A DNA stretch of 45,632 nucleotides, taken from IMG/VR virus record IMGVR_UViG_3300028490_000014, positions 1 to 45,632 of that record; one strand, given 5' to 3'. The position numbers were made by a program, and so were the translations under genes. Position 1 is the first letter of the stretch. Each line of letters begins with the position of its first letter. A model generated the notes under the pieces. The model worked only from the letters and a program-made list of their open reading frames with translations. It was not told the DNA's origin and made no database searches. Of the stretch, positions 1 to 45,632 are shown piece after piece. Source of the stretch: a virus.

Positions 1-307
1 CACGTACTTGCTTCATACCAAATGTCTCATCTGGATACTCAGAACCATCACGTTTCTTAGCCATTCTAGTTGTAAGTCCATTAGCACCTTGGAACCACAT
101 AGTCTCTCTCTTTGGATACTTAGACTTACCGTCTGTATATTCAATCGTAAGCCCTACTGCTTCACTTGATGCTGACTCTGTTACATATGCTACTGTAATT
201 GCTACTGGATATAATCCACTTGGCGTACTAAAACTCGCTGCTTCTTCTTTGTTAATTGCTTCTGCTGCTTCTACCAACTCTGTGTTTACTGTAAAAAATT
301 TTGCCAT
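1..307 (-). CDS. ssDNA-binding-like recombination protein, copy 1 (partial)
   Basis: This is the N-terminal part of a protein whose full copy lies at 43983-44666; the rest runs off the left edge of the window. It starts MAKFFTVNTELVEAAEAINK and after about residue 10 is almost identical to the second copy. The protein sits directly downstream of a Sak4-like ATPase, where phages usually place a single-strand DNA-binding partner (inference from context and from the Gly-Phe-rich C-terminus of the full copy). The DNA identity to 44363-44666 is close to 98% by eye, with most changes silent. Confidence 0.6.
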   Translation of the reverse strand, partial: MAKFFTVNTELVEAAEAINKEEAASFSTPSGLYPVAITVAYVTESASSEAVGLTIEYTDGKSKYPKRETMWFQGANGLTTRMAKKRDGSEYPDETFGMKQVR

Positions 308-308
308 C

Positions 309-755
309 TTATTTTCCTTTTCCAAATCTTAATTTGTTTTCGTGCGAGAGTCTAATGCTCAACGCTTCTTCATATGTATCATATCTGCCGATATATTTAC
401 GACAAATTGAAACCTCATACCGTCCACCCTTTAGTCGTATTCCACGATTCTTAGGATTACGGTTCCTTGCATTCATAGTTGGTGTTGTCTCTCTGAGATT
501 ATCCCATCTGTTGTTCCTAGCATCCCTGTCTATGTGGTCTACATACTCTGGTATGCTTCCCGTCATATACATAAATGCTAGTCTGTGAGCAGCAACTCTC
601 TCGCCAGATATACGAATACGATAGTATCCATTAATGTGGTCTGAGCCTGTTGCTCCTGCTATTTTGCTATTGCGACCTTGCTTACTAGACAGCCAAGTGA
701 ATACACCAGTCAAAGGTTCATAATGAATTTCCTTTTTCACCTCTTCCTGGGTCAT
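309..755 (-). CDS. HNH homing endonuclease (HNH_3 plus AP2-like)
   Basis: A 148-aa free-standing HNH endonuclease. Residues about 50-100 carry the HNH_3-type core, with AAHRLAF, VDHIDRDARNNRWDNLR and an Asn-rich stretch. The C-terminal part (about 100-145, GGRYEVSICRKYIGRYDTYE) resembles the AP2 DNA-binding domain common in phage homing enzymes. It overlaps the upstream ATPase stop codon by 4 nt (ATGA), so translation is probably coupled. The gene is missing from the second copy of this locus at 44667, where the ATPase stop is followed almost at once by the ssDNA-binding-like gene. That makes it a clean insertion. It holds one CTTGGNTG-type motif (690). Confidence 0.85.
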   Translation of the reverse strand: MTQEEVKKEIHYEPLTGVFTWLSSKQGRNSKIAGATGSDHINGYYRIRISGERVAAHRLAFMYMTGSIPEYVDHIDRDARNNRWDNLRETTPTMNARNRNPKNRGIRLKGGRYEVSICRKYIGRYDTYEEALSIRLSHENKLRFGKGK

Positions 756-1441
756 TTTCTTATCTTCTCTAGTATGTAGCCTAGGTCTGCTTTCTCTACT
801 GAGTCTAGCTTCCGTGTTCTACTCTTTGCAAGCACTGTATCTGTTGGTTGCGTTCGCAATATACGTTCACCTTTATCATCTACTTCAAGATGCCATACAA
901 AATCAAACAGTGGAGCCATCTTTGTACCTAACTTTTTACCTATCATAGATATGGATGCTACTTCCTTCATCTGTTTAATAACAGACTCCTCCAGTGCAGA
1001 CATAAATATATTGTAACCCTTTAGGTCACGGAATGCTTTAACTAATGCAATCATTTCGCTCTGCGTTTCACCGTATAGCTTCAATGTATCCTGTCTACCA
1101 GAATATAGTTTGGGGTCATTCTTGAACTCTTTAAACATCATCTCACTAAGTTCAGTAAGTGAATCAATAAAGATGTTGTCGAATTTCTCCTGCATCTCCT
1201 TGGTTTGCATTGCTACAAACACACCGTGTAACTCCTCTAACTTGGTTGGCTCTACATATTGCAATTCAGCACCAGACTTCTCATCTAGGATTGATAACAA
1301 TCCAGACTCAAACGAGATGACTAATGTCCTACTCATATCTAGTGTACTTGCTAGTGTAGTTTTACCTATACCTGCATCAGAGAAAATCAGTGCCTTAACA
1401 CCATCGCTATGTATCGAATCTGCTTTTTTAATTTCAAGCAT
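752..1441 (-). CDS. Sak4-like RecA-fold ATPase, allele 1
   Basis: A 229-aa AAA_24/Sak4-type NTPase. The Walker A motif is DAGIGKTT (about residues 22-29) and a Walker B-like FDNIFIDS lies near residue 88. Sak4-type proteins are phage recombinases that work with a single-strand DNA-binding protein in annealing or replication. The gene overlaps the HNH gene downstream. A second version (44668-45357) shares the same architecture but only about half of its residues, although the DNA on both sides is nearly identical. The start follows a good ribosome-binding site (GGAAAGGAGT). Confidence 0.8.
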   Translation of the reverse strand: MLEIKKADSIHSDGVKALIFSDAGIGKTTLASTLDMSRTLVISFESGLLSILDEKSGAELQYVEPTKLEELHGVFVAMQTKEMQEKFDNIFIDSLTELSEMMFKEFKNDPKLYSGRQDTLKLYGETQSEMIALVKAFRDLKGYNIFMSALEESVIKQMKEVASISMIGKKLGTKMAPLFDFVWHLEVDDKGERILRTQPTDTVLAKSRTRKLDSVEKADLGYILEKIRK

Positions 1442-1462
1442 TCGTACTCCTTTCCTTGTTCT

Positions 1463-1468
1463 ATTATA
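1463..1468 (-). promoter_or_regulatory. Possible -10 box upstream of the Sak4-like gene
   Basis: A perfect TATAAT on the minus strand lies 21 nt upstream of the ATPase start, in the 81-nt gap after the primase gene. No convincing -35 box is visible. The corresponding spacer in the second copy of the locus is different in sequence, which lowers confidence. Confidence 0.3.
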
Positions 1469-1522
1469 GAATCTCTATAATTTGAATAACATACAGTTTA
1501 GAGCCATGTCTGTGGGCTTTTA

Positions 1523-3559
1523 CTACTTCTTACGCTTGATACTCTTTAAGATAGTACCTGCTAATTCTCTCTCTGGTAGAGGGTCTGCAATCTTAGAGTT
1601 TAATGCTCTAACTTTCTCCTCTACTACCTCATCACTAAGACCATCGTTCATCTTTAAGAGTGCAGCGTATCTGAATAGACTATTATTTCTATTACCATCC
1701 ACTGTCTCTGCGATAAAAAATCTCTCGATACCCTCAACATTGTCATACTTTTCTAGCTTCTTATGTACATCTTTCGCCTTGGTTGTGTTTGGTAGACATG
1801 GTCCTATTTCAAACCTCTTTGTGCCCTTGGATGTCCAAGTTTCAGCCAAGGTATACGGATAATACAACCTGGCTGCATCAGTAGCATTCATATCTGCTGG
1901 AACACCTGTTAAATTTATTACATTTATCATAAACGACCTAAAGGTTTCAGCATCAAGCTCTATCTTTTTATCAGCCAAGAGTATTACTCTAAATCTCTCA
2001 TTCACATCACCATTTTTTTCCTTCATATTGTTCTTGGTTGTAGATATAATACAACGATAGTCAGAGAAGAATGATTTAGCTACCTCAAAAGACATACCAC
2101 CATCGACATCTAAAATAATTAAATCTTGACTCTCTTCATAATTTTCATTTGACCTCTTTCCGTCTTTGAATGTACCTGCAGAATAGTTATGTACTCCTGT
2201 AGTTACCTTGGTGAGGTCATCGAACTTACCAGTAATAGTTTCGTACCCATCACCCATAGATTTACTAACACTTATTGTAACATTATCTTCGTCCGTATTG
2301 GTCATACTGTTTATACCATACCGTATAGTATTTCCATGCTTCTTCGTGAAGATTATGTGACCTATTGTGTCAGCGTATTCCTCTGCAAACATTATTGCAT
2401 CATCAACTGCTTTCATTGTGGTTGTATTCAATACTTTCTTTGCAAGCTCCTGTTTTGTAACAGGTACACTTGACTCAATAAGATAATGAACAAGCATTTC
2501 ATGTGGTGCATGGTCTTCCATGAATGCTTGTGCATAAGCACCACACTTATCTGTAAACTCTATTGCACCCTCTACGTCACTAACTTCTACATTTTTATGA
2601 CCTTCAAAGTATGCATACATTGCAGCCAAGCGTGACATCTTCCATGCCCTTCCACCCATCTCAGCTATGATTCCTTCTGGTGCTTCAACACCTATATATT
2701 TACGACCACACTCTTCATCATACTCGTAGTATCTATCTAGTGCATCTGGTGTCATAGATAAAGTAACTTCACCTTGGTCAAATACTTCTTTTATCTTACT
2801 TCTAAGCTTATCAAACTCATCCTCATTATTGGATGGTCTAAATCCAGAATCATATTTAGCCTTTGCTAGTGCATCAACCTCTTCTTTGCTAACTGATACT
2901 AAAAATGTACGTCTAGCGAGACCAGTAGCTAGTGCCCTAGATAACAACTCTTTCTCCTTGGATGCAGAGTGTACACCAACAGGTGAACCGTAAACTATTA
3001 TGTTTGCTGGAACGCCATAAACAGAGGGGATAGGTTTGCCTCTATTAGACTTAGCTCCAGACTCACCCTTCTCCCAGGCTATAGTTATGTCAGAGAAGAA
3101 TTCCACTGAACCAACATTGGATAACATATCCTGTATCTCTGGTATCTTTAGACACGATACTCCGTATCCAACAGTAGATATATTTACCCTGTTTTGCAAG
3201 AAGCCTTCTGGAGTAGCTCTCTGAAACTCAAACTCTGGCAGTGGAACTGCATCATCTGGGTTAGATGAATTGAATTTGGAATACCTCTTCGTTAGTTCAG
3301 ATGAATACGCCATAGCTGCACCACTAAAACATTGCTTTGCTAAATCCACACTTCTATCTTTACCCTTACCCGATGGAGCTAGAGTAAGACCAAAGTAATT
3401 AACGAGGACACTGGAACCAGATATGGTACTATACTTTACTCTATTAATTGATGTGAATGCACCCATAAGATAGTGGATTGAATTCATTACTATCATTGGA
3501 TGTATTCCTGGGTCTTCCTTATATATTAAATCAGATATTGCTTTGACTGCAGAATTCAT
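1523..3559 (-). CDS. Primase/helicase: DUF3987-like ATPase plus AEP-like primase
   Basis: A 678-aa protein with two parts. The N-terminal half resembles DUF3987 ATPases, with a P-loop variant APSGKGKDRS near residues 60-70. The C-terminal third resembles archaeo-eukaryotic-type primases (prim-pol): LIILDVDGG, then ISTTKN, then ERFRVILLADK, which are the acidic, Ser/His-like and Arg/Asp motifs of that fold. It probably makes primers and may drive unwinding for replication. The order ATPase first and primase second is the reverse of the usual arrangement. Its 3' end is repeated at 45434-45632. Domain assignment rests on motifs only. Confidence 0.65.
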   Translation of the reverse strand: MNSAVKAISDLIYKEDPGIHPMIVMNSIHYLMGAFTSINRVKYSTISGSSVLVNYFGLTLAPSGKGKDRSVDLAKQCFSGAAMAYSSELTKRYSKFNSSNPDDAVPLPEFEFQRATPEGFLQNRVNISTVGYGVSCLKIPEIQDMLSNVGSVEFFSDITIAWEKGESGAKSNRGKPIPSVYGVPANIIVYGSPVGVHSASKEKELLSRALATGLARRTFLVSVSKEEVDALAKAKYDSGFRPSNNEDEFDKLRSKIKEVFDQGEVTLSMTPDALDRYYEYDEECGRKYIGVEAPEGIIAEMGGRAWKMSRLAAMYAYFEGHKNVEVSDVEGAIEFTDKCGAYAQAFMEDHAPHEMLVHYLIESSVPVTKQELAKKVLNTTTMKAVDDAIMFAEEYADTIGHIIFTKKHGNTIRYGINSMTNTDEDNVTISVSKSMGDGYETITGKFDDLTKVTTGVHNYSAGTFKDGKRSNENYEESQDLIILDVDGGMSFEVAKSFFSDYRCIISTTKNNMKEKNGDVNERFRVILLADKKIELDAETFRSFMINVINLTGVPADMNATDAARLYYPYTLAETWTSKGTKRFEIGPCLPNTTKAKDVHKKLEKYDNVEGIERFFIAETVDGNRNNSLFRYAALLKMNDGLSDEVVEEKVRALNSKIADPLPERELAGTILKSIKRKK

Positions 3560-3749
3560 CTAGTTCCTCCTTTAATTCTTTTACTGGTCTCATCATAAAT
3601 ACCATATTTCCAGTATTGATTTCTAATCCCAGGCTATCTTTGTAGGCTGTATAGTACTTTCCTTCTTCGGAGTAAGCAATTCCAACGTACCTTTCTGAGA
3701 CAATCCAGACTGCTTCTCTTCCGTTTGCTTGTTTAAATTTATCTTGCAC
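3531..3749 (-). CDS. Small hypothetical protein overlapping the primase start
   Basis: A 72-aa reading frame starting MQDKFKQANGREAVWIV that overlaps the wHTH gene (3623-3943) by 127 nt and the primase start by 29 nt. The composition is protein-like (acidic C-terminus KELKEELDEFC). Long overlaps are common in this phage but 127 nt is more than most, so the real start may be further inside, or this frame may not be expressed. I do not recognise a family. Confidence 0.4.
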   Translation of the reverse strand: MQDKFKQANGREAVWIVSERYVGIAYSEEGKYYTAYKDSLGLEINTGNMVFMMRPVKELKEELDEFCSQSNI

Positions 3750-3943
3750 TCTTCTTTCCTTTTTATTTTTAACATTCTATATTTAGTACCATCCTGCGAT
3801 ACATATATCTTTTTTATATAGTTATTCTCAACCAAGTACTTCAATGCTACTTTTACTGTGGTGTCCCCTATTCCAGTAAGCACAACCAAGCGTGATACGC
3901 TAAGAGTAGTCATCAATGTCTTACCACTACAGTGATTTGCCAT
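3623..3943 (-). CDS. Winged-helix DNA-binding protein (replication or transcription)
   Basis: A 106-aa product with a clear winged-helix pattern: LSVSRLVVLTGIGDTTVKVA as recognition part and LVENNYIKKIYV as wing, followed by a basic, Gln-rich tail. Proteins of this shape just upstream of a primase are usually replication initiators or early regulators. The ATG at 3943 is probably not the true start. The frame stays open upstream to about 4046 and reads SKLFPVVQAAGIVIPNSSAF then LVHIV, which supplies the missing first helix, but I see no ATG, GTG or TTG in that extension. Confidence 0.55.
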   Translation of the reverse strand: MANHCSGKTLMTTLSVSRLVVLTGIGDTTVKVALKYLVENNYIKKIYVSQDGTKYRMLKIKRKEECKINLNKQTEEKQSGLSQKGTLELLTPKKESTIQPTKIAWD

Positions 3944-4070
3944 TACTATGTGTACTAAAAATGCTGATGAATTTGGAATAACTATTCCTGCAGCCTGAAC
4001 GACTGGAAATAATTTACTTAACTTTGCAATGTTTACCTGAGTTTATTTATTTAAGTATTGGAAGAGGATG

Positions 4071-4158
4071 GGTCTCAAGCATCCTGCTCTGTTGTAAAAT
4101 ACTTAGAGGAGCTCAACCAAGTAAGACCTGATTGAATTCCGACAAGAGGCTTGAGACC
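4071..4158. repeat. 10-bp perfect inverted repeat with a structured interior
   Basis: GGTCTCAAGC (4071-4080) and GCTTGAGACC (4149-4158) form a perfect 10-bp stem around about 68 nt that can fold further (TACTT/AAGTA, and CTCTGTTGT against ACAAGAG). A competing hairpin AGGATG/CATCCT overlaps the left arm. It lies in the 431-nt gap 3944-4374, which holds no gene and looks like a structured RNA or an origin-type site. The strand cannot be fixed, although terminators further right read on the plus strand. Confidence 0.6.
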
Positions 4159-4240
4159 CTCTAAATATTCGTTCCATATTGTACGTAATTATCCCTAAAT
4201 TTTTTCTTAATTTTCTTGAGTAACCTTAATCAAAACTTAA

Positions 4241-4288
4241 ATAGGGGGGTCCAAATCTGACCCCATAGGGGGGTCGGAATCCGACTAC
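4241..4288. repeat. Two tandem 24-bp G-rich repeats
   Basis: Two adjacent 24-bp units, 4241-4264 and 4265-4288, share ATAGGGGGGTC followed by AATC(T/C)GAC. Each contains a run of six G, very unusual in this AT-rich genome. GGGGTC/GACCCC pairs also make a dyad across the units. They may be iteron-like binding sites of a replication or regulatory protein (inference). Confidence 0.6.
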
Positions 4289-4294
4289 ATACTA

Positions 4295-4322
4295 CTCTCC
4301 TAAAGGAGAGAGGGTTTTTTAC
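4295..4322 (+). terminator. Rho-independent terminator (plus strand)
   Basis: A stem CTCTCC/GGAGAG with loop TAAA is followed on the plus strand by AGGGTTTTTT and a further T-rich stretch. No plus-strand gene lies upstream, so it would end a non-coding transcript from the 4050-4290 region. Confidence 0.55.
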
Positions 4323-4338
4323 TTTTTTGTTTTATATG

Positions 4339-4376
4339 ACGAGCTTCGCCCTTCGGGCTACGCTCGTATTATTTTT
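4339..4376. terminator. Strong interrupted hairpin downstream of 4375-4713
   Basis: ACGAGC (4339-4344) pairs with GCTCGT (4362-4367) and GCCC (4348-4351) with GGGC (4355-4358) around a TTC loop. It starts a few nt beyond the stop of the leftward gene at 4375. The T-rich tail (ATTATTTTT) is on the plus-strand side, so it best fits a rightward terminator, possibly acting in both directions. Confidence 0.5.
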
Positions 4377-4713
4377 ACTTCTTTACTTTGATACTTCTTA
4401 CTACAATTTCTGGCTTTCTTAATAAGTCAATATCAGAATCCATTAAATCATACTTTCGTTGTAGTTCTTTCATATCTACATTACCTTTACGTTTATGCTC
4501 TGCTACTTCTAATAACTCAAACGTAAACCCTTGGCTGTGATATTGAAGCAATGCTTCTTTTGCAATCTTCATTCTTTCAGTGTATTCATCAACTACTTTC
4601 TTGGCTGCCATATAAGCACCCTCTGTTTCTACTGATTGAGCTTTCATATAATCATACTCTTGGTCTAGTGCTTCCATACGTTCTAATTCTTGTTCTGCTT
4701 TTAACTCTTCCAT
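4375..4713 (-). CDS. Hypothetical coiled-coil protein
   Basis: A 112-aa, highly charged, helix-rich protein (MEELKAEQELERMEALDQEY) with heptad-like spacing through about residue 60, ending in a basic SIKVKK tail. It overlaps the helicase stop by 13 nt and is the last gene of the helicase cluster before the structured gap. Phage genes of this shape in replication clusters are often annotated as nuclease or recombination accessory factors, but nothing here proves a function. Confidence 0.65.
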   Translation of the reverse strand: MEELKAEQELERMEALDQEYDYMKAQSVETEGAYMAAKKVVDEYTERMKIAKEALLQYHSQGFTFELLEVAEHKRKGNVDMKELQRKYDLMDSDIDLLRKPEIVVRSIKVKK

Positions 4714-6191
4714 GATTGTCCTCCTAAGACGTTATCTCGAAACCAAGTGGGATAATTTCTTATTCCTCCAAATTTCTTTCCTTCTTTTAGCATCTTAGTC
4801 AATCGTGACCTAAGAGCACCTACACTCATCCAAGATATAGTCGGTGTAATACCTTCCATAATCCATTTAACCTTACTCATCTTATGCTCTTGGTTGTAAA
4901 AGCTCTCATAGAGCTCAGAAGCAGCCACTATAAGCTCTAAATGTGTTCGGGCATACCTGAACCTCCATAGCCTTGCTTTTTGGCTTGTAGCCTCTCCTGC
5001 GAAGATATGTTCTTTATCTAGTATTTCACGTTCAACTATGAAATCATGTGGATATACAGAATCCATATAGTCAATTACATTTTCTCTACATCTATATGTC
5101 TCCTCTTTAGCTTCCTTCTTGGTTGCATATACTATGAATGGTTCATTATATAAACCATGGTCAGTTGTGCTTCTACACATATCTAATATCAGTGCTCTAT
5201 CACTAGATTCCTTGGTTGTTCGTAACACACGTCCAATCATTTGAGTATATAGAGAACGAATTTTAGTCGGTCTACAATTAATAATCACATTACAGTCTGG
5301 AAAATCCCAGCCTGTGGTTAATTTTCCCATACTGACTAGTACAGATATGTCATCCATAGACTTACCCTCAAATGCATCCATCATCAACTCATTACTCTTG
5401 GCTGTCTGTTTAGAGTGAACACTTCCAACAGAAACTCCATTTTCAGAGAACACTCTAGCTAATTCATCACATTGAGATATGCCACTAACAAATACTATAG
5501 CTTTCTTGCCACTTGCGTGCTCCATATAAGCCTCTACGACAGATTGTCGATACTCATCATTCCCAAGTAGGTCATCGAGCTCAGAATCACTGTAGTCACC
5601 AGATGTTTTTATGGCATCCAAGTCTATAGATTGACCTGCTTTACAGATAATTGTGTCTGCAGGCATCAGGAATCCAGAATCAGTCAAACTCTTAATATCA
5701 GTAAAACTACATAATTCATAGTCTTTCAATGCAACACCAAATCCATCGTATGGTGTAGCACTAGTACCCACGATTGCACTTGGCTGTACCTTAGCAATTA
5801 GCTTTTTGAATCGTTCACCTGATACTCCTATGTGTAATTCATCCTTGATAACTAAGTCTGCTTTGAAGTTAATCTTGGCTGCTCTCTTATCGAATGTTTG
5901 ATCCATCCATATTTGTACTCGCTCATTTTCATCATAGCGTTCATCCATTCCTGACTTGAGTATGCTATGTTTGATACCCATAGCATCCAAGTGAGAAGAT
6001 AACTGCATAACTAGTTTAGATATATTGACAGAGATGACTATTTTGTCTGAACTTCTTATTCTACATAGTTCAGCAATAATTACTGACTTACCAGCCCCAG
6101 TTTGGGCATCAATAGCTATACGAGTAGAACCAAATGCTAATGCACCTTCACAGTAATCAACTATTTCTTGTTGGTATGGACGTAGTTTCAT
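4701..6191 (-). CDS. SF2 DEAD/DEAH-type DNA helicase
   Basis: A 496-aa superfamily 2 helicase. Motif I is AQTGAGKS (about residues 29-36), motif II is DELH (about 117), motif III is GTSATP (about 143), and motif VI QMIGRVLRT lies near residue 320. This is the set seen in phage UvsW/D10-like branch-migration or replication helicases. It starts at 6191 and overlaps the 47-aa gene upstream by 4 nt (ATGA). It probably works on replication forks or recombination intermediates together with the nuclease at 6506-7249. Confidence 0.85.
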   Translation of the reverse strand: MKLRPYQQEIVDYCEGALAFGSTRIAIDAQTGAGKSVIIAELCRIRSSDKIVISVNISKLVMQLSSHLDAMGIKHSILKSGMDERYDENERVQIWMDQTFDKRAAKINFKADLVIKDELHIGVSGERFKKLIAKVQPSAIVGTSATPYDGFGVALKDYELCSFTDIKSLTDSGFLMPADTIICKAGQSIDLDAIKTSGDYSDSELDDLLGNDEYRQSVVEAYMEHASGKKAIVFVSGISQCDELARVFSENGVSVGSVHSKQTAKSNELMMDAFEGKSMDDISVLVSMGKLTTGWDFPDCNVIINCRPTKIRSLYTQMIGRVLRTTKESSDRALILDMCRSTTDHGLYNEPFIVYATKKEAKEETYRCRENVIDYMDSVYPHDFIVEREILDKEHIFAGEATSQKARLWRFRYARTHLELIVAASELYESFYNQEHKMSKVKWIMEGITPTISWMSVGALRSRLTKMLKEGKKFGGIRNYPTWFRDNVLGGQSWKS

Positions 6192-6331
6192 CGTTTCATC
6201 TCCTCATACTCAATCATATATTTAGCATAGGCAACCAAGATTTCTGTGTCATAAAACATAAATGACAGTTCTTTTTCATCAATCGCTCTTTTGTATAGTT
6301 GTTTCAGTTCTGCAAGTTGTGTGCGTGTCAT
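6188..6331 (-). CDS. Small hypothetical protein (47 aa)
   Basis: A short gene, MTRTQLAELKQLYKRAIDEK then ELSFMFYDTE..., rich in Glu, Lys and Tyr and likely helical. It is preceded by a strong ribosome-binding site (AAGGAGGAG) and its TGA overlaps the helicase ATG, which supports real translation. It overlaps the end of 6279-6509 by 53 nt. Function unknown. Confidence 0.6.
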   Translation of the reverse strand: MTRTQLAELKQLYKRAIDEKELSFMFYDTEILVAYAKYMIEYEEMKR

Positions 6332-6509
6332 GTAACTCCTCCTTATATGCGTATATTTGTCCAACCAGTTCTACACCAGCACCTTTACTCTTTACTTTTA
6401 TTCTTGTAATTAAAAACTCACTCCACAACTCAACATATACTGCATTAATAGCTTCGAGATTGAGTACAATCTCTGTGCTTCGCAGTATATCTTCGTCGCT
6501 TATATTCAC
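6279..6509 (-). CDS. Hypothetical protein (76 aa)
   Basis: Starts MNISDEDILRSTEIVLNLEA, coupled by an ATGA overlap to the nuclease gene upstream. The body is compact and mixed helix/strand with no motif I recognise. The last 17 codons overlap the next small gene in another frame. Confidence 0.5.
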   Translation of the reverse strand: MNISDEDILRSTEIVLNLEAINAVYVELWSEFLITRIKVKSKGAGVELVGQIYAYKEELHDTHTTCRTETTIQKSD

Positions 6510-7249
6510 GACCTACCCCATTTAAGACCTAGAGTCTTGGCTGTATCGTCACGTTTACGCTTACACACATGACTGTAATCACAATAGTAAGCACACTTAG
6601 AATCTACATACATTCCATCTTTTACAAATCGTGGCATCACATTCTCACACTTAGGTGGTAATTTGCTTGCATCGAGATACTCTTCTAACTCTTTAATCTT
6701 GGCTGCCATATATGCCTCAATCTCTTCTGTAGTCATGATATTACACTCGACTATTTGGTATGCAGATGCAGGATGAGTGGGCTTTACAGGGTCCCAGTCA
6801 GTGATGAAGCAATGAGCCTCAGCAGTGAAATCTCCTCCAAGCAACCAGTTGTATACAGCCATTTGAATGTTGATTCTGTGGTCTTTTTTGTTTGATTTGA
6901 AAGTGGCATATGCAGATGCACTCATCCCTTTCCAGTCAAATATTACATGGTCCATGTAATCAACCAAGTCAGTCTTACCATTAATCATGTAGTCATTAAG
7001 TGGACGTTCTACACGTTCCTCCTGCACAAATCTACCACTCTTGGTACTTGGATGTGACTTAAACATGTGCTCCATACCCATATGGAATATAGAGCCTATA
7101 GCTCCCCTTCCAAATGTACCTGGCTTAGGACTTTCAGTCGCAGCCAAGTAGAGTTCTAAAATATCTTTACTAAATGATGATGCAGAGATAGTCTTGGCTG
7201 CACGTACTCCATCATAAAATTTATACTTTGTTATATGTTCTCTAATCAT
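6506..7249 (-). CDS. PD-(D/E)XK nuclease, RecB/Cas4-like
   Basis: A 247-aa nuclease. GKTDLVDYMDHVIFDWKG carries the D...(D/E)xK catalytic pattern (about residues 91-108), followed by a Gln/Tyr helix (INIQMAVYNWLL). The C-terminal end has a Cys cluster (CENVMP, then KCAYYCDYSHVCKRK), which recalls the Fe-S or Zn clusters of Cas4/AddB-like nucleases. A phage exonuclease of this type supplies single-stranded ends for Sak4-type recombination. The gene overlaps its neighbours on both sides by 4 nt, so it belongs to the helicase/VWA/MoxR operon. Confidence 0.75.
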   Translation of the reverse strand: MIREHITKYKFYDGVRAAKTISASSFSKDILELYLAATESPKPGTFGRGAIGSIFHMGMEHMFKSHPSTKSGRFVQEERVERPLNDYMINGKTDLVDYMDHVIFDWKGMSASAYATFKSNKKDHRINIQMAVYNWLLGGDFTAEAHCFITDWDPVKPTHPASAYQIVECNIMTTEEIEAYMAAKIKELEEYLDASKLPPKCENVMPRFVKDGMYVDSKCAYYCDYSHVCKRKRDDTAKTLGLKWGRS

Positions 7250-8976
7250 GCTACATTCCTTGGGTTGGCGTCAAAATTAAGACACGCATTATCTATAAGA
7301 TAATATATAAGCTCACTTGCATCTCCACGTACTGCAGACTTAGTGAACCATTTATTTAGTCCATTCGTATAGGACAGTGCTAGTGCAGGGTTCTTCTTAA
7401 CAGCACGTTGCGTATATAGACCTATGACTTCTATACCATGTGCCTTCATGTCTTTCTGGTCTATATGCCCATCAGTAAGCTGTCCATCTGTTAATGCTAC
7501 ATTATAGTCTGCATGCTGTAATTCTTTCCATCGTAGACCCATGGTGTGCCTAAATCCTTCTCCACCGTTATGTGCAGATAATTTAGGTAGCAACTTTGGA
7601 TTAATAGGAAGCTTCATTATAGCAGATGCTCCACTTGCACTAAGCATAAGATTGCCAGATACGACTCCTCGTAGAGCAAGTTTATTGATACAATTAATCA
7701 CGTCTATTGCATCATCTATGTGGTATCCATTCATAGAGCCACTTGTATCTAAAATCAGATTCAACTCAAGATGTTTACCTCCTAGAGGTACTTTTGACTT
7801 ATATATATTGTCACTAAGTTCACTAACCAGTGCTCTTGTATTTAGTCTCTTGGATGGGTTCTGTGATACCCGTGTACCAATACGACCAGCTAGTGTGTCA
7901 TATAGAGCATCAGCCAAGGTGGTCATCTTCATGTCACGTTTATTCCATCCATCCATGTCTATACTGCGATAATCACTAAAGAAGTAATCCTTGGTTGTTT
8001 TAGTCATGTCACCTAATTCAAGTGTGTCATTCTCACCTTGGAACTCCTCGTCTTCCTCTTTTGGCTTATCTACAAAATCAGGGTCAGTATTGGCTTCCAT
8101 TTTTCCATGTCCAACCTTTGATGCTTCGTTTGAGTCCTTCTCGTATGGCTCGTTTACTCTTCTATAGTATGTATTAGTAGTACTGCTTTGTTTATCTAGC
8201 ATACCAGCCAAGTCTTCCACTGTATTATGTTTGTATACTAAATCACCAAAGTCAATATTCATTTGTGAACCAAGACTGTCTGCCCAATTATTATAATTAG
8301 ACCTTGCTTTGCCCATAGTGGTCAATCTATCTAGCATGGACTTACCCCATGTACTGTCTGGTGTACTACCATTTGTGATAGAAGTACATAAGTCCATAAA
8401 GTCATTTGTTGCTGGGAAAACCTCTGCTGTACCACTTGGAACATGACATCCGTGAATGATTTGCTGTGCAGCAACAAGTGTATGACTAAGCATCTCTCTT
8501 GCGATATTCACTTTTTCTATGGGAAAATCTGGGTCATTAGGAGTACTTCCACTAACGATATCTTTAGCCTTACTATTCATGGCACTAACATCACATCTTT
8601 TTCTGATACTGTCACGGTCGCTACGTGCTACATATGCACCTCTCATAAGTTTCTTGAATCTATCATCACGCTCATCTATAGGTAGAGCCTCCAAGTGTTC
8701 CTCCATAGCTAGGCTATTTACATATATTTTACCATGGTTATTACTGGAATGATATGCAACAGGGGCCTCTATGCCTTCTATGTTCGTCCCCTCAATAGAG
8801 AGATTCGTACTCGTATTGTGTTTAAGACCCTTCACCTTCGTGAACGGACTAAATCCATTTAATACCATATCCACATTGGATTTGGATATAAGCTTCTTAT
8901 AACGCTGATTGACACCCATCCCTGCGTATCTATCAACGTATCCGTGATCTATATCACCGAATAGGTTGAATTGCAT
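7246..8976 (-). CDS. VWA-domain protein, MoxR partner
   Basis: A 576-aa protein whose C-terminal third is a von Willebrand A domain with a MIDAS motif LDTSGSMNG (DxSxS) near residue 408, and a later TDGQLTDG carrying the downstream MIDAS Asp. The middle has a strongly acidic, Asp/Glu-rich linker (about 300-330). VWA proteins paired with a MoxR ATPase, as in CobS/CobT-like or NorQ/NorD-like pairs, act as metal-insertion or complex-remodelling chaperones; such pairs are known from several phages but their phage role is unknown. It starts at the stop of the MoxR gene with a one-base overlap. Confidence 0.8.
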   Translation of the reverse strand: MQFNLFGDIDHGYVDRYAGMGVNQRYKKLISKSNVDMVLNGFSPFTKVKGLKHNTSTNLSIEGTNIEGIEAPVAYHSSNNHGKIYVNSLAMEEHLEALPIDERDDRFKKLMRGAYVARSDRDSIRKRCDVSAMNSKAKDIVSGSTPNDPDFPIEKVNIAREMLSHTLVAAQQIIHGCHVPSGTAEVFPATNDFMDLCTSITNGSTPDSTWGKSMLDRLTTMGKARSNYNNWADSLGSQMNIDFGDLVYKHNTVEDLAGMLDKQSSTTNTYYRRVNEPYEKDSNEASKVGHGKMEANTDPDFVDKPKEEDEEFQGENDTLELGDMTKTTKDYFFSDYRSIDMDGWNKRDMKMTTLADALYDTLAGRIGTRVSQNPSKRLNTRALVSELSDNIYKSKVPLGGKHLELNLILDTSGSMNGYHIDDAIDVINCINKLALRGVVSGNLMLSASGASAIMKLPINPKLLPKLSAHNGGEGFRHTMGLRWKELQHADYNVALTDGQLTDGHIDQKDMKAHGIEVIGLYTQRAVKKNPALALSYTNGLNKWFTKSAVRGDASELIYYLIDNACLNFDANPRNVA

Positions 8977-11173: not shown

Positions 11174-11193
11174 CAACCAAGTAACCTTGGCTG
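11174..11193. terminator. Hairpin built from two CTTGGNTG motifs
   Basis: CAACCAAG, loop TAAC, CTTGGCTG: two oppositely oriented copies of the genome-wide 8-mer form an 8-bp stem (one G-T pair) with a 4-nt loop. It lies just beyond the stop of the zinc-ribbon gene (11200) and before the MoxR start region. No T-run follows, so termination is only suggested by position. Confidence 0.45.
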
Positions 11194-15905: not shown

Positions 15906-16490
15906 TCAGGTTATACTACGCTTATGTATATACTCACTTCTTAACCACACCACCTCATATAGCACATCACCAAGAGCATCACCTGCTCGTACAGTAAGTG
16001 GTTTAGGGAAAGGCTCAAACCCAGCAGACCATGAGGACACAGTGTTGTTGGTGTGTATCTCACCAAGTAGATATCTTCGGTTTATAGTGTAAGACCTCAT
16101 TGCAGAGAGTAGATTGAATATCCATACATATTTAAAGTTGTGAAATCCATGGTATCTACTTGGATGTGCGTTCATATATAGTAGTTTACCAGCTAAGTGT
16201 ATATCTATGAGTTGGGAAGCTATTTGCCACTGGCTTTGCTTGGTTGCAGAAGTGTAATATTCCATGAATTTTTCGACTGTATATATATAATGGTTGTAAT
16301 ACTTGCCTCTAATGGGTGGATTTAGTAGCTGATATATGACCATATCAAAGAGTTCTGGTACTGGTTTTCGTAGGCATGTGGTTTTGAGACCATAGTCATC
16401 CAAGTCCTCCTTGGTTGGAGCCCTTAGATTCATTGGTCCATAGCGTTGCAAACTTAATCGTGTCATTATACTCATAACGATATGGTACAA
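15906..16490 (-). CDS. Hypothetical protein (194 aa) at the divergence point
   Basis: A basic, Tyr/Trp/His-rich protein without a recognisable family. The first ATG is at 16490 (MYHIV), but the ATG at 16475 (MSIMTRLSLQRYG) may be the real start because the first leaves almost no room for a promoter next to the rightward genes. It is the rightmost gene of the leftward arm. Confidence 0.6.
   Translation of the reverse strand: MYHIVMSIMTRLSLQRYGPMNLRAPTKEDLDDYGLKTTCLRKPVPELFDMVIYQLLNPPIRGKYYNHYIYTVEKFMEYYTSATKQSQWQIASQLIDIHLAGKLLYMNAHPSRYHGFHNFKYVWIFNLLSAMRSYTINRRYLLGEIHTNNTVSSWSAGFEPFPKPLTVRAGDALGDVLYEVVWLRSEYIHKRSIT
16446..16472 (+). promoter_or_regulatory. Possible promoter of the rightward arm
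   Basis: TTGCAA (16446-16451) and TATACT (16467-16472) with a 15-nt spacer lie 39 nt upstream of the first rightward ATG. The spacer is short and the -10 imperfect, so this is a weak call resting mainly on position. Confidence 0.25.
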
Positions 16491-29700: not shown

Positions 29701-29800
29701 AATAATATCAAGTTTTTACAATAAAGATAGAGACTATGGATTCAGGATTCACGATATAATTCAGGAAGCAAAAGTAAATCAAAGATATAATTTATCATAA
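26783..29800 (+). CDS. Tail tubular protein B (nozzle), T7 gp12-like
   Basis: A 1005-aa nozzle protein. The start (MAKLVANSHGSMYNGVSQQP, then YNANHSLEYGLIRREP) is the classical gp12 beginning, and the middle has RDIFFYRNRLGFLSDEGITM followed by DPIDFVVSTTS, the most conserved part of the family. The usual length is about 800, so this version carries extra segments, including an Arg/Gln helical insert near 285. It forms the tail tip that contacts the cell surface. Confidence 0.9.
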   Translation: MAKLVANSHGSMYNGVSQQPPHMRSSSQVEESYNANHSLEYGLIRREPLEQPDGSSGTTPIMSNVYDESYSNMIIDGNSVYQININNGIPMLVQLKPYYKILRVGDGISISTDASWYLSQRRGTFKRTQFATTTIKNTTLIANDAVIPRTYESGTNTHDDRYALVWFKHADAALGIDYCITIGGRKFCTASKDRSTDNKSYGCPGTGIGGIPAETYYPMPNPPNISGGGVMYDDELKIQVRPGTTTPVYVYAHNWMSAGEISSYQAYVAAIDARNMALQDLGRARSRRIQTENQQDKLDAWIRQDIKGPTTTADAARDLYTQIRDAGYICSVSGSVLYVDAKKKDVYTSDSFGNTAMALFYREIPGVELLPQEVPSTWKHLKFKVKQETTDDKAAFWAHWNGSIWEETQAGRHVLVREKTMPIEMRVAFHNNGSIANVVIGIRQWDDRKVGDTSSNPGPKFFNRLPIRDIFFYRNRLGFLSDEGITMSESGDHSNLWRTTALTTLDSDPIDFVVSTTSSTSLRHTVMNQDKVFILADNVQFVMDGGAVFSPKSVRVNEVSHYVLNLDIQPIVTDNKIVFMGGTDKSAIVYEYAYNESLGIAEANALTAHVPGYILNDVNCLAASNEDSMIFVVASDHRERLLPRYGDDTTMFRDMYDGSDYSDSVNYSHVQAYPDRKILYVYKYADSGGKKVQSAWSKWNYRGSVLQVSAAHGMLYMDIDHEIDFDQEFTVIGSGEWRMSGDWNHQGMSWNMTRHDYLTKAQLQRRFARQALTPPFIEGVTGEYEVSTSILGDDTAIIHDYRDFGQFVNRTFVDIGEFVFKDRASKTYTASNSKLKSLRIKSDPGSLHTVIIRNQADGTERAILPQSNKKFSGIGLASNYFLFNLGETNVTGRDRVAGLKFDESPILDTQPIIGDERGEEVVAGGDLVAGFDSAQIANLGNKQPMSLVNKKLPNLYGVDVPIMVGGRSESTRVIISSFYNKDRDYGFRIHDIIQEAKVNQRYNLS

Positions 29801-31572: not shown

Positions 31573-32016
31573 ATGGCAGATATTAAATTAAGAAGTGCAG
31601 CAGGTGGCAGCATTGCACTGACAGTAGACCCTACTTTGACCACAGATGAGACATTCGATATGACACAAGCAGAAGCAATAACGAGTGGTGGGAGTGAAGC
31701 TACTGGATATTGGGTTAAGTACCCTGACGGAACAATGATACAATATGGAATTAAGAATTATGGGTCAATGCCCATAACGGGTGCATGGGGGGCTCTATTT
31801 ACTTCTGGAATGCAAGAAAAAGTATTTTTCCCGAAGACTTTTATTAGCCCACCATCATGTACAATGTCGGCAGGTGGGGCTGGAGTAAGCTATTTTATTT
31901 CACTAGAGGGTGTGACTGGCACAGATGGGAGTCAGGCCCCATATTTTCTTAGAGGTACATCTGGTACTGTGAATAGTTTGAATATGAGCTGGCAAGCAAT
32001 AGGGAGATGGAGATGA
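31573..32016 (+). CDS. Receptor-binding tip protein, paralogue 1
   Basis: 147 aa. The first half has ITSGGSEATGYWVKYPDGTM then IQYG; the end reads MSWQAIGRWR. This YPDGT...AIGRW frame is common in C-terminal receptor-binding domains of phage fibres. The second gene (32007-32414) has the same frame. It may attach to the collagen-like fibre. Confidence 0.65.
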   Translation: MADIKLRSAAGGSIALTVDPTLTTDETFDMTQAEAITSGGSEATGYWVKYPDGTMIQYGIKNYGSMPITGAWGALFTSGMQEKVFFPKTFISPPSCTMSAGGAGVSYFISLEGVTGTDGSQAPYFLRGTSGTVNSLNMSWQAIGRWR

Positions 32017-32414
32017 GTAAGTTAAAAACAAACACACTAGAGACAATAGATGGAACAGTAAGTATAGACATTAAGGATATGGCTACAGCGTTCATTACTA
32101 GTGGTTCTAATGCTACTGGCTCATGGACAAGATTTCCAGACGGTACACAGATTACATATGTTTATGGATGGACAAGTCCATCTGGTTCAGGTGCGAGTTA
32201 CGATTACCCTATATCATTTAAGCAGGGAAGTCACCCAACCCCACAAGTAAGTCACTATGGCAACACAATAGTCCCAACATATTATGGTCAGCCAGAGATT
32301 TCACCTACTAGTTCAAATCATTCAGTACTAAGAATACTGAAAACTAAATTTGATGGTACACCTAATATAGACGCTGTTAGATTTAACATCACAGCAATAG
32401 GTAGATGGAAGTAG
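32007..32414 (+). CDS. Receptor-binding tip protein, paralogue 2
   Basis: 135 aa, sharing ITSGSNATGSWTRFPDGTQI and ITAIGRWK with its neighbour, but with a different middle (GASYDYPISFKQGSHPTPQV). It overlaps the previous gene by 10 nt. Two tandem tip genes with shared ends and divergent middles suggest alternative or joint receptor binding. Confidence 0.65.
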   Translation: MEMSKLKTNTLETIDGTVSIDIKDMATAFITSGSNATGSWTRFPDGTQITYVYGWTSPSGSGASYDYPISFKQGSHPTPQVSHYGNTIVPTYYGQPEISPTSSNHSVLRILKTKFDGTPNIDAVRFNITAIGRWK

Positions 32415-32422: not shown

Positions 32423-32442
32423 CAGCCAAGTGTTCTTGGTTG
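32423..32442. terminator. Hairpin built from two CTTGGNTG motifs
   Basis: CAGCCAAG, loop TGTT, CTTGGTTG: the two motif copies form an 8-bp stem (one G-T pair) with a 4-nt loop, 8 nt after the stop of the fibre cluster. The geometry is identical to 11174-11193. It probably marks the end of the fibre transcript, though the T-run is absent. Confidence 0.5.
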
Positions 32443-40528: not shown

Positions 40529-40553
40529 TCTATATCATCATAAAGGATATAGA

Positions 40554-41039
40554 ATGACAGAATTAATTAAAGACCTTGGAGTCCAAACAATAACCACAAG
40601 CACAGGCAGTAGCTACAGAAAATCAATGTGTGAGCTAAAGTGCGACTGTGGTAAAGTATGGACAGCCAAGACTGCAGACTTCAATGCTGGAAAGATACTT
40701 CGCTGTAAGTCTTGTGCTATAGCAAAAAGAAACAGAACTCACGGTGGAACAGGAACTAGACTATTTAGAACCTGGATGCACATGAAGGGTAGATGCTACT
40801 GCTCTAGTGACCACACCTACCCATCATACGGTGGTAGGGGCATATCAATACACACTCCTTGGCTGCTATCATTCGCTTCATTCAAGTCTTGGGCAACCAA
40901 GAATGGGTATAATGAGGACTTGACTATAGAAAGGATAGATGTAAATGGAAATTACGAACCAAGAAACTGTACCTGGATTCCAGCCTCCGAGCAAAGTAAA
41001 AACAGAAGACCCTCGTCCGAGTGGAAAAAAAGAAGATAA
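40554..41039 (+). CDS. Homing-endonuclease-like protein (YGGRGI type) inserted in the terminase locus
   Basis: 161 aa. It has an N-terminal zinc ribbon (CDCGKVW...CKSCA), then TYPSYGGRGISIHTPWL, and LTIERIDVNGNYEPRNCTWI. These motifs mark a phage family related to HNH/AP2-type homing proteins, usually found inserted between essential genes. It lies between small and large terminase subunits and its last 95 nt overlap the terminase start. Catalytic activity is unproven. Confidence 0.65.
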   Translation: MTELIKDLGVQTITTSTGSSYRKSMCELKCDCGKVWTAKTADFNAGKILRCKSCAIAKRNRTHGGTGTRLFRTWMHMKGRCYCSSDHTYPSYGGRGISIHTPWLLSFASFKSWATKNGYNEDLTIERIDVNGNYEPRNCTWIPASEQSKNRRPSSEWKKRR

Positions 41040-42696
41040 GGGATACAAGCTAGAAGAAATAGTAAATGACTTTCCAACCTTTACTATATATATGTTCGAG
41101 CAAATGGGATTGCCTCACCCCACAGAGGCACAAGTGGAGATTGCCAAATTTCTAGGCAACTCAGAATATCCAGATAAGATGCTATTAGCACTAAGAGGAT
41201 TAGGCAAGAGTCTGTTCTCTCAAATGTATGTACTTTGGAGGCTATTAAGAAACAACAATGAACATATACTTGTTATCTCTGGGTCATCCAAGAGATCAAA
41301 AAACTTCACCAACTTCTGTCTGTCCATGATGAGAAGTGTACCACTACTCCAACACCTTGTTCCTAGAAGCGATCAGCGTAGAGCATCAGACCACTTTGAT
41401 GTAAATGGTTCTAAGCCAAGCGACTCACCGAATCTATACGCAGCAGGAATAACGACAGGACTTGCAGGATTTCGTGCTACCATAATCGTATCTGACGACA
41501 TCGAACAATCGACAAATTCACGTACTATTGAAGCACGTGCGACAATCACTCATTTCTTTAATGAGGCGATCAACCTATTAATCTCCGAGGGAGAAGAGAG
41601 ACAGGGTGAGGTTATTATCCTTGGGACATATCAATCTACAGAGTCTATTTACATAGGTATAGAAACAGGTGGATACAAAGTATGTATCATACCTGCTCAA
41701 TACCCAACCAAGAAGCATCGTTATGGTAAACGTATTGCACAATATATTCAGGACCGTATAGATAAAACACCAGAGATAGCTGGTGAAGCAGTTGATTCTC
41801 GCTTCCCACAATCTGTGCTCACTAAGCGTAAGATGAAGATTGGTAACTCAGCATTTCAACTTCAATATAACCTCGACCCTACTGACAGTGATGAGACAAA
41901 GTTCCCATTAAAACTACGGGACTTAATCATTACTGACATAGACAGCCAAGAGAATCCATTGAAGATAGGTTACTCATCTTTAAATAAGTTGTATAGTTTA
42001 AAACACAATGGGTTTACTACTGACTATTTCTCGACCCCTGGCTGGACCTCAGACGAGAGATCTCCGTTCACCTATGTGGTTATGTCTATTGACCCTTCTG
42101 GACGTGGTAATGATGAGACAGGTATCTCCATTGGTGGATTACTTAATGGTAAGATATTCCTAATGAAGAACACTGGTATCAAAGGTGGCTATGATGAAGA
42201 ATCCTTCATGACGATTAAGTCGCTATGTAAATTATTCAGCGTAAACACCGTGGTAATCGAAAGCAACTTTGGTGATGGTGCATATCTAGCTATGTTACAA
42301 CCATACCTGGATGACCAAGGAGTAGAGGAAGTTAGGTCTATTAAGCAAAAAGAATTGCGTATCATAGAAACACTTGAACCAATAATGAATCAACATAGAC
42401 TCATCGTAGACACAAAAGTCTTCGAGGATGACATGGATGTCAAGGGTGAATACTCACTATCGTATCAACTCACTCACGTTACACGTGAAAGAGATTGTCT
42501 TCGACATGACGATAGACTGGATTCACTAGAAATGCTAATCTCTCATATGATGGAGTACTTGGCTGTGAATGAAGATAGAGGTCTTGCAAAACACCAGGCT
42601 GATGAAGATGATGAGCTCTTTAATAAATTAGAAGAAATGAATATGATTGGTGGAAGTAAACGTAGAAAGAAACCTAACTATGGTGACTCATACTAA
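40945..42696 (+). CDS. Large terminase subunit, T7 gp19-like
   Basis: A 583-aa packaging motor. Walker A is ALRGLGKS (about 83-90), Walker B IIVSDDIE (about 179-186). The nuclease part has SIDPSGRGNDETG, TVVIESNFGDG and DDRLDSLEM, the acidic residues of the RNase H-like nuclease. The chosen ATG (40945) lies within the inserted gene, so the first about 30 residues are shared DNA in another frame; homologous sequence starts near EIVNDFPTF (about residue 38). The true start could be later. It closes the rightward arm. Confidence 0.9.
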   Translation: MEITNQETVPGFQPPSKVKTEDPRPSGKKEDKGYKLEEIVNDFPTFTIYMFEQMGLPHPTEAQVEIAKFLGNSEYPDKMLLALRGLGKSLFSQMYVLWRLLRNNNEHILVISGSSKRSKNFTNFCLSMMRSVPLLQHLVPRSDQRRASDHFDVNGSKPSDSPNLYAAGITTGLAGFRATIIVSDDIEQSTNSRTIEARATITHFFNEAINLLISEGEERQGEVIILGTYQSTESIYIGIETGGYKVCIIPAQYPTKKHRYGKRIAQYIQDRIDKTPEIAGEAVDSRFPQSVLTKRKMKIGNSAFQLQYNLDPTDSDETKFPLKLRDLIITDIDSQENPLKIGYSSLNKLYSLKHNGFTTDYFSTPGWTSDERSPFTYVVMSIDPSGRGNDETGISIGGLLNGKIFLMKNTGIKGGYDEESFMTIKSLCKLFSVNTVVIESNFGDGAYLAMLQPYLDDQGVEEVRSIKQKELRIIETLEPIMNQHRLIVDTKVFEDDMDVKGEYSLSYQLTHVTRERDCLRHDDRLDSLEMLISHMMEYLAVNEDRGLAKHQADEDDELFNKLEEMNMIGGSKRRKKPNYGDSY

Positions 42697-42700
42697 CTTC

Positions 42701-42714: not shown

Positions 42715-42766
42715 TCAGTCAAATATACTCTATAGGGGAAAGTAAATGTGTTTTAACACATAAGCA

Positions 42767-43787: not shown

Positions 43788-44056
43788 TATTCTACTTCCT
43801 TTAAATCTTCTTTTTTTAGACTAGGAATATTGTTATACCTAGACCATATAAATTGTAAACACGCCTCTTCATCTATTCCTGTAAAAAGAGACGGAACCTT
43901 CTTACCTGCAACCAAGAGATGTACGTCATACCATCCTCCATTCTTGGCTGTAAGAGTCCAGGTGTCACCACCTGCCTCTATACTACGCACCGAAGCCTCC
44001 AAATGCTGCTGCAGCTTCTTCTTTACCTGATGATGCACCTGGTTTAGATAGCTCAC
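43787..44056 (-). CDS. Hypothetical protein (up to 89 aa), start uncertain
   Basis: The frame opens at 44056, but that gives a 74-nt overlap with the ssDNA-binding-like gene. A GTG close to that gene's stop (VRSIEAGGDTWTLTA, about 43990) is a plausible start for a protein of about 67 aa. The body contains Trp and aromatic residues (GGWYDVHLLVAGKKVPSLFT). No family recognised. Confidence 0.5.
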   Translation of the reverse strand: MSYLNQVHHQVKKKLQQHLEASVRSIEAGGDTWTLTAKNGGWYDVHLLVAGKKVPSLFTGIDEEACLQFIWSRYNNIPSLKKEDLKEVE

Positions 44057-44666
44057 GGATATCCTTGGTTGGCTCTTTAGCTATAACACCTAAGAATTTA
44101 GATACATCCTGTGTTCTACCCCATGGGAATACTACACCTTCTGTATCTGTCTCACTTCTACCCACCCAAATGATGTTAGCTACGTTACGTGACTCAGTTT
44201 CTTCACTGTACTTATCTTCAAGTGTATCTTGTATGCCAACTACAAGTGTCTTACCTGTTAGGTCTGGGAATACCATTACGTCACGAAGACCATCTTTACC
44301 TTCAATCTTACCTGGCTCTGTTTCCATAGCTTCAAAATTAACACCAACTACTGCACATAATCCACGTACTTGCTTCATACCAAATGTCTCATCTGGATAC
44401 TCAGAACCATCACGTTTCTTAGCCATTCTAGTTGTAAGTCCATTAGCACCTTGGAACCACATAGTCTCTCTCTTTGGATACTTAGACTTTCCGTCTGTAT
44501 ATTCAATAGTAAGCCCTACTGCTTCACTTGATGCTGACTCTGTTACATATGCTACTGTAATTGCTACTGGATATAATCCACTTGGTGTACTGAAACTTGC
44601 TGCTTCTTCTTTGTTAATTGCTTCTGCTGCTTCTACTAATGTGTTATCTACTTTAAAAAATGCCAT
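43983..44666 (-). CDS. ssDNA-binding-like recombination protein, full copy
   Basis: 227 aa, acidic and beta-rich, starting MAFFKVDNTLVEAAEAINKE and ending EEAAAAFGGFGA. The Gly-Phe tail resembles the C-terminal tips of SSB-like proteins that recruit partners. It lies one gene after the Sak4-like ATPase, the usual place of an SSB partner. The N-terminal 100 residues are nearly identical to the partial copy at 1-307. Call is by context and composition. Confidence 0.6.
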   Translation of the reverse strand: MAFFKVDNTLVEAAEAINKEEAASFSTPSGLYPVAITVAYVTESASSEAVGLTIEYTDGKSKYPKRETMWFQGANGLTTRMAKKRDGSEYPDETFGMKQVRGLCAVVGVNFEAMETEPGKIEGKDGLRDVMVFPDLTGKTLVVGIQDTLEDKYSEETESRNVANIIWVGRSETDTEGVVFPWGRTQDVSKFLGVIAKEPTKDIRELSKPGASSGKEEAAAAFGGFGA

Positions 44667-44667
44667 C

Positions 44668-45357
44668 TTATTTTCCTTTAATTATCGAGAGGATACGACC
44701 TAAGTCTGCCTCTTCTTTATTCTCTAGCTTGCGACTACGACTCTTTGCTTCAAATGTACTGCCTGGCTGCGTGTACAATGCACGCTTGCCATCATCGTCT
44801 GATGTCATATAGAATATGAAATCAAAAAGACTTAACATCTTGTTACCGAGCTTCTGTCCTACCATGCTCGGACGGCTACACTCTTTCATGTTTTTTACAT
44901 ATGTTTCTGAGAGAGCTGTCATGAATATGTTATATCCAGCCAAGTCTCTAAACGCTTTAGAAATAGTTACCATTTCTTCTTGCGTAATCATATATAATTT
45001 CATGTTGTCTTGCATTCCCTTATAAACCTTGGGGTCTGCCTTCACTGTTGCCAGCACCAACTCACTGATCTCACTAAGAGAGTCAATGAAAATATTGTCA
45101 AACTTCGATTGATATTCTGGTTTCAATAACTCAGCATAAATCTCATTCAACTCCTTGAGAGTAGTAACATTCACGTATTGTAAATCTTCCATGCCTGGCT
45201 CATCGAGTAAACTCAATAGACCTGACTCAAAAGAAATAATCAGTGTACGCTTAGGGTCAAGGGTACTAGCTAAGGTAGTCTTACCTGTACCTGCAGTCCC
45301 ATAAATCAAACACTTGACTCCACCAACGTGAATATCTTTAGCACCTAATATTTCCAT
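44668..45357 (-). CDS. Sak4-like RecA-fold ATPase, allele 2
   Basis: 229 aa with Walker A GTAGTGKTT (about 21-29) and FDNIFIDSLSE (about 86-96). Same length and layout as the 752-1441 product, but differing at about half of the residues, e.g. HVGGVKCLIYG against HSDGVKALIFS. It is followed almost directly by the ssDNA-binding-like gene, with no HNH gene in between. It represents the HNH-free allele of the locus. Confidence 0.8.
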   Translation of the reverse strand: MEILGAKDIHVGGVKCLIYGTAGTGKTTLASTLDPKRTLIISFESGLLSLLDEPGMEDLQYVNVTTLKELNEIYAELLKPEYQSKFDNIFIDSLSEISELVLATVKADPKVYKGMQDNMKLYMITQEEMVTISKAFRDLAGYNIFMTALSETYVKNMKECSRPSMVGQKLGNKMLSLFDFIFYMTSDDDGKRALYTQPGSTFEAKSRSRKLENKEEADLGRILSIIKGK

Positions 45358-45433
45358 AGGTGACTCCTTTCATAAGGACTGATATATTATCGTGTCCTAG
45401 TGTACTTTTAGAGCCATTACTCCTGGGCTTTTA

Positions 45434-45632
45434 CTACTTCTTACGCTTGATACTTTTCAGAATAGTACCTGCTAATTCTCTCTCTGGCAGAGGGTCTGCA
45501 ATCTTAGAGTTTAATGCTCTGACTTTCTCCTCTACTACCTCATCACTAAGACCATCGTTCATCTTTAAGAGTGCAGCGTATCTAAATAGACTGTTATTTC
45601 TATTACCATCCACTGTCTCTGCGATAAAAAAT
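45434..45632 (-). CDS. Primase/helicase C-terminus, copy 2 (partial)
   Basis: The last about 65 codons of the primase gene, running off the right edge of the window: FIAETVDGNRNNSLFRYAAL to SIKRKK. The protein is identical to the end of the 1523-3559 product except for silent changes I can see. It marks the right end of the repeated segment. Confidence 0.8.
   Translation of the reverse strand, partial: FFIAETVDGNRNNSLFRYAALLKMNDGLSDEVVEEKVRALNSKIADPLPERELAGTILKSIKRKK

Follow-up and report, generated by a model that had tools for sequence, protein, structure and literature searches.

A strict octamer seeded on both strands of a chimeric podovirus genome, a possible Chi-like word

The viral record IMGVR_UViG_3300028490_000014, referred to here as the window and covering 45,632 bases (45.6 kb, 39% G+C), carries 147 copies of the octamer CTTGGHTG (H = A, C or T), 80 on the forward strand and 67 on the reverse, or about one copy per 300 bases with both strands taken together (3.2 per kb). 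The word is strict, is selected as DNA, turns over between related genomes, avoids itself on the same strand at short range and is present in one phage lineage. It is tentatively read as a Chi-like octamer that would shield the phage from an end-resecting nuclease of its host. The original prediction, made from the letters of this genome, proposed a genome-wide address mark, and a mark at the level of DNA is supported by codon-aware counts, by relatives, by turnover and by retention of the word over unchanged peptides.

The three forms of the word, CTTGGATG, CTTGGCTG and CTTGGTTG, occur 28, 67 and 52 times on both strands, while the reversed control word occurs 4 times. The remaining form, CTTGGGTG, is found once, at 18236, and is left out of the 147. 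A second-order Markov model expects 6.8 copies, a ratio of 21.7, and the trinucleotide expectation falls to 5.0 once the sites are masked before the model is fitted. The predicted excess of about 147 copies over 5–6 expected is therefore sound (5–7 from trinucleotides), and the codon shuffle described below agrees with it. Against a fourth-order model the three forms are the top 8-mers of the genome; the expectation of 30.5 (ratio 4.8) is high because pentanucleotides already hold much of the signal. The Markov comparison proposed as a check thus shows the excess under the second and fourth orders and none at eight letters under the sixth, maximal order, because the seven-letter parts, nearly all of them copies of the word, already carry it. 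Restriction sites are normally depleted in phages, while this word stands in 20–30-fold excess, in keeping with the earlier view that simple restriction is unlikely.

Protein coding does not explain these copies. Across the genome, 124 coding copies are observed against 6.5 ± 2.4 after synonymous-codon shuffling, with 14 in the highest of 300 shuffles. Relative to genes, the copies occupy every one of the six frames, and they cover 116 different tetrapeptides, so that no protein motif accounts for them, which rules against descent from a few duplicated motifs. Its commonest coding frames, xxC TTG GHT and xCA DCC AAG, spell ordinary amino acids. Genes and spacers are equally dense at 3.2 per kb each (124 copies in ~38.4 kb and 23 in 7.3 kb), confirming the first impression of copies in different frames, in genes, in spacers and inside HNH genes. 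The flanks hold little information, except that C is favoured directly after the word.

In the proposed comparison with related phages, two relatives carry the same word and a cousin carries a shifted form. G001 (IMGVR_UViG_3300033153_002739) has 104 copies in 42 kb and G002 (3300022701_000193) has 31 in 9.6 kb; the portals of both are 74–75% identical to that of the window. A 7.8-kb fragment of the cousin L019 (3300022839_000369; terminase 63% identical) holds nine copies of the shifted word TTGGCTGC, where 0.14 would be expected. They are spread along the fragment on both strands, and the first C of the word is not required; this dialect is based on those nine sites in one fragment. Relatives with portals 42–53% identical have neither CTTGGHTG nor TTGGCTGC, and the nearest named phages (Lauvirus) have terminases just 38–39% identical to that of the window. 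A separate candidate, GCGGCT in the distant relative G006 (IMGVR_UViG_3300032257_000037, 35–40 kb), was rejected as a genome word: it is enriched but clustered and mainly on one strand, as from repeated protein motifs.

Single-letter variants of the word are at background in all three genomes that carry it, with 91 seen against 93.2 expected in the window (0.98), 116 against 108.9 in G001 (1.07) and 23 against 25.8 in G002 (0.89). CTTGGHTG is therefore all-or-none. The near absence of G at position 6 was correctly noted, yet the single CTTGGGTG matches the background of 1.2, so that G at this position simply does not belong to the word. A mild rise in all three genomes is seen for the variants CCTGGHTG (19 against 7.4, summed) and ATTGGHTG (24 against 13.1, summed), a pair singled out post hoc after inspection of the data. 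The idea of a drifting word surrounded by frequent near-misses thus fails within one genome (91 against 93) and holds between lineages, given TTGGCTGC in L019. An excess of near-misses proved useless for distinguishing uptake-type from enzyme-type words, as near-misses of the uptake words in phages HP1 and Aaphi23 are also near background.

The comparison with G001 shows that the sites move while their density is maintained. Aligned proteins of the two phages are ~55% identical, and only 17–19 of the 103 window sites in aligned DNA are kept in place. Sites present only in the window lie over codons with 43% amino acid identity, against a background of 56%, indicating that few gains of the word were silent. 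Over unchanged peptides, the word is retained in 10 of 19 cases against 1.1 expected from codon-by-codon conservation, and in the other direction in 10 of 14 against 0.4. This retention beyond expectation shows that selection acts on the DNA itself. The word also reaches full density (8 copies in 2.6 kb) in five genes missing from G001, of which two are recognisable as HNH genes.

Neighbouring copies favour opposite strands. Adjacent pairs share a strand in 117 of 279 cases (P 0.008), and among pairs no more than 60 bases apart in 10 of 33 against 16.4 expected (P 0.02). Permuting the strands over fixed positions shows a deficit of same-strand pairs up to ~600 bases (P 0.02–0.05) and none farther; several distance classes were tested on one data set, so these P values are not independent. 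Short same-strand gaps make up 3.3% against 9.3% expected, and none of 4000 simulations fell that low. Mean per-strand spacing is 540–860 bases in the two large genomes. It is more regular than random on one strand of G001 (coefficient of variation 0.68, P 0.003) and no more regular than random in the window. The proposed check for strand bias found no polarity along the genome with the direction of replication or transcription. The short-range avoidance on the same strand moderately supports a function in which the two strands are read independently.

The window combines an N4-like replication block (1523–9743 and 43983–45357) with a T7-like virion module, which marks a chimeric podovirus lineage (Table 1). 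The block, comprising primase, Sak4 ATPase and single-strand DNA-binding protein (SSB), recalls that of phage Presley, and its primase is 45% identical to that of G001 and 23% to that of L019. An AAA_5 ATPase is encoded as well, together with a protein that bears the VWA-like motif DTSGSMNG. The window proteins that were scanned include no recognisable RNA polymerase, DNA polymerase, integrase or methyltransferase, and no tRNA was found in the window. Two SSB–Sak4 cassettes are present, one at each end of the contig (1–1441 and 43983–45357). The left-end SSB copy adjoins an HNH gene and shares ~100 nearly identical N-terminal residues with the other, while the left-end Sak4 has diverged, being 58% identical to the G001 gene against 82% for the other copy; the contig ends do not combine into a single open SSB frame. 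An 899-residue orphan protein (20113–22812) lies among the structural genes and has no homologue in G001, Pfam, PHROGs or PDB sequences.

Table 1. Features of the window, with positions and strand as recorded
Feature	Position	Strand	Remark
CTTGGHTG copies	1..45632, throughout	80 on +, 67 on -	word counts
N4-type DNA primase	1523..3559	-	phrog_2135, PriCT_1; candidate reader of the word
SF2 helicase	4701..6191	-	phrog_16, ResIII/Helicase_C
PD-(D/E)XK exonuclease	6506..7249	-	PDDEXK_1
Inverted pair, 4-base gap (CAACCAAG-TAAC-CTTGGCTG)	11174..11193		between two genes; could form a hairpin
Inverted pair, 5-base gap	16397..16417		
Portal	17515-19041		T7-like virion module
Capsid	24500-25435		T7-like virion module
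Nozzle	26783-29800		T7-like virion module
Inverted pair, 4-base gap (CAGCCAAG-TGTT-CTTGGTTG)	32423..32442		directly after gene 32007-32414
Terminase large subunit	40945-42696		T7-like virion module
SSB	43983..44666	-	phrog_743
Sak4-like single-stranded DNA annealing ATPase	44668..45357	-	alignment

A strict, asymmetric octamer that is selected as DNA, kept per strand and independent of transcription fits an enzyme that moves along and reads one strand, either a Chi-responsive nuclease-helicase or a primase. These two fit best among the options first listed, which also included an uptake mark. For the favoured Chi-like reading, we infer a RecBCD-type reader, a host that possesses it and a protective effect. 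A protein would recognise the word on a single strand of the DNA, and the phage would keep the density of the word high on each strand. A putative host RecBCD-type enzyme entering from a broken or free phage end would meet the word on the strand that it reads, cease destroying the DNA and pass a 3' single strand to recombination, where the phage's own Sak4 protein and SSB would receive it. Dense sites on two strands would limit loss wherever the genome was cut or ended.

Chi of H. influenzae is GNTGGTGG. CTTGGHTG resembles Chi in being a strict, asymmetric word of eight letters with one degenerate letter, present in both orientations, and its TGG occupies positions 3–5, as in the Chi of E. coli (GCTGGTGG) and of P. 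syringae (GCTGGCGC) (PMC5959072). Lambdoid phages that have a recombinase and lack a RecBCD inhibitor carry Chi above expectation (PMC3784561), and the window phage has Sak4 and SSB while no such inhibitor was identified in it, these proteins being small and hard to recognise. On these analogies of length, register and enrichment, Chi appears better precedented than a primase site. The divergence of the word in L019 matches what a change of host enzyme would give.

Several observations weigh against the Chi-like reading. Chi reaches 0.2 per kb in Rec-minus lambdoid phages or E. coli, where it is over-represented 2.3-fold (PMC3784561). CTTGGHTG is ~16 times denser, beyond the apparent need of end protection, and its observed-to-expected ratio is 20–30 against about 2.4 for Chi. 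The shared TGG register, one of only a few that could occur, may be coincidental, and contact with RecBCD would be invisible to sequence comparison. In addition, the proposed search of candidate hosts found no dense carrier: among ~680 genomes screened by counts (369 Gammaproteobacteria, 190 Alphaproteobacteria and 119 Bacteroidia), none is an outlier, the highest reaching 0.30 per kb against 3.2 here. Under Markov models, seven genomes with high counts or ratios hold 0.6–1.5 times expectation, so that high counts, where checked, reflect base composition. This screen could miss a weak excess in an unchecked genome, though not a dense mark, and the host might lie outside the sampled groups. Portal relatives gave no clue to the host in 84,980 species, and the matches listed there for a pattern of three close copies of the word are scattered over all phyla. 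The same pattern in IMG/VR returned 21 contigs, none carrier-like (0.26–1.5 per kb), in a search of low power, with an estimated ~0.36 hits per full-length genome; the single contig at 2.2 per kb is a 1.4-kb piece, i.e., the matched triple itself. A literature search for the words themselves found nothing relevant.

Rather unlikely, yet suited to the scale of the spacing, is a role as start site of the phage's own N4-type primase, in which the lagging strand would need a site every few hundred bases per strand and the word would change together with the primase. The phage encodes primase, helicase, SSB and Sak4, with no DNA polymerase recognised among the scanned proteins. The 540–860-base spacing on each strand, its regularity in G001 and the same-strand avoidance agree with such a role, and so does the comparison of primases: at 45% identity (G001) the word is unchanged, at 23% (L019) it is shifted. 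Recognition sites of the T7, T4 and DnaG primases are likewise needed on each strand, hundreds of bases to kilobases apart, but they have just 3–5 letters, are plentiful by chance and need no enrichment, and we know of no 8-letter primase site. Moreover, in N4-like Presley, whose primase is related, the word is not dense (16 copies in 78 kb, where the control has 6), and the window itself is not regularly spaced. A self mark seems unlikely; here a host or phage enzyme would modify or bind the word, and the mark would protect phage DNA against a defence system or the nucleases of the phage itself. The strictness and whole-genome coverage of the word would suit such a mark, as would the encoded PD-(D/E)XK exonuclease and SF2 helicase. 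So would the full density in the five genes absent from G001, as though a gene had to gain the word once acquired; however, no methyltransferase was recognised among the scanned proteins, and same-strand avoidance has no obvious reason.

A DNA-uptake word of the host that entered the phage when transformation replaced its sequences, as happens in Pasteurellaceae phages, is improbable, and the original suggestion of an uptake mark is weakened. Uptake words (DUS, USS) are likewise genome-wide, on both strands, with lineage dialects and inverted pairs near gene ends, where they can serve as terminators; the inverted pairs of the window recall them. Phages of Haemophilus and Aggregatibacter contain uptake words of their hosts: HP1 and Aaphi23 each carry 17 copies of AAGTGCGGT against 0.3–0.5 expected, with near-misses close to background (PMC6776037). 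CTTGGHTG, in contrast, is 6–8 times denser (3.2 against 0.4–0.5 per kb) and shows a same-strand avoidance not expected of uptake words, and no marked host was found among the genomes screened or, beyond scattered hits, among the matches listed for 84,980 species. No integrase was recognised among the scanned proteins, and one published survey found few uptake words in large, likely lytic Haemophilus phages (PMC6776037). Very improbable is a role in site-specific nicking of single strands of virion DNA, known from T5, tf and phiKMV-like phages. Those words share with CTTGGHTG the podovirus setting, strictness, asymmetry and dialects between relatives (PMC3517423, PMC11780129), but in tf, its relatives and Rembedalsseter they number 8–14 per genome, are limited to one strand and keep similar positions from relative to relative; here 147 copies divide between both strands and few stay in place. 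Regulatory repeats fit less well. Mycobacteriophage stoperators, also repeated asymmetric phage words, are mainly intergenic, oriented with transcription and present in 5–30 copies. The same holds for the repeats of T1-like and Microbacterium phages (PMC11447400, PMC7302621), unlike CTTGGHTG, of which 124 of 147 copies lie in genes, sense and antisense alike. The probability left over by the Chi-like, primase, self-mark, uptake and nick readings goes to other causes.

Possible, if doubtful, is a broader view in which a phage lineage has its own strand-read addressing: a phage-encoded primase or recombination enzyme would read the strict octamer, and the genome, new genes included, would be kept seeded with it on each strand. 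Different words, (A)WTTGTTCGG among them, may serve other phage lineages, and genome-wide phage words may be commoner than thought. The word (A)WTTGTTCGG, present on both strands and in all frames, belongs to a second lineage found among 80 viral loci with a Sak4 relative (L278, L279, L283, L259 and L288), which encodes a helicase of the same family and a primase/helicase. In the 59-kb genome G389 (IMGVR_UViG_3300030110_001528, locus L278), TTGTTCGG occurs 33 times against 4 for the reversed control, and the word is denser in a portion of that genome in which the replication genes lie. Separately, in two gammaproteobacterial genomes, GGCTTTGG occurs 115 times against 38 expected in 420 kb (G126, L165–L184) and 80 against 30 in 300 kb (G045, L160–L164 and L185–L194) under a second-order Markov model, and might be a Chi-like word there. 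G126 also holds ~55 copies of GGTCGTAC/GGTACGAC, ~10 times expectation.

Strict genome-wide words are known in bacteria, as Chi and uptake words, and are diluted in their phages. Here a phage lineage holds its word at 3 per kb even though about one in two amino acids of its proteins has been replaced and four of every five sites lie elsewhere. Holding this density through such change requires a strong, continuing force on the DNA, and no phage system known to us explains such a force at this density. Once found, the reader would reveal a Chi-like word far stronger than that of E. coli, a primase that starts at an octamer or a self mark of a new kind.

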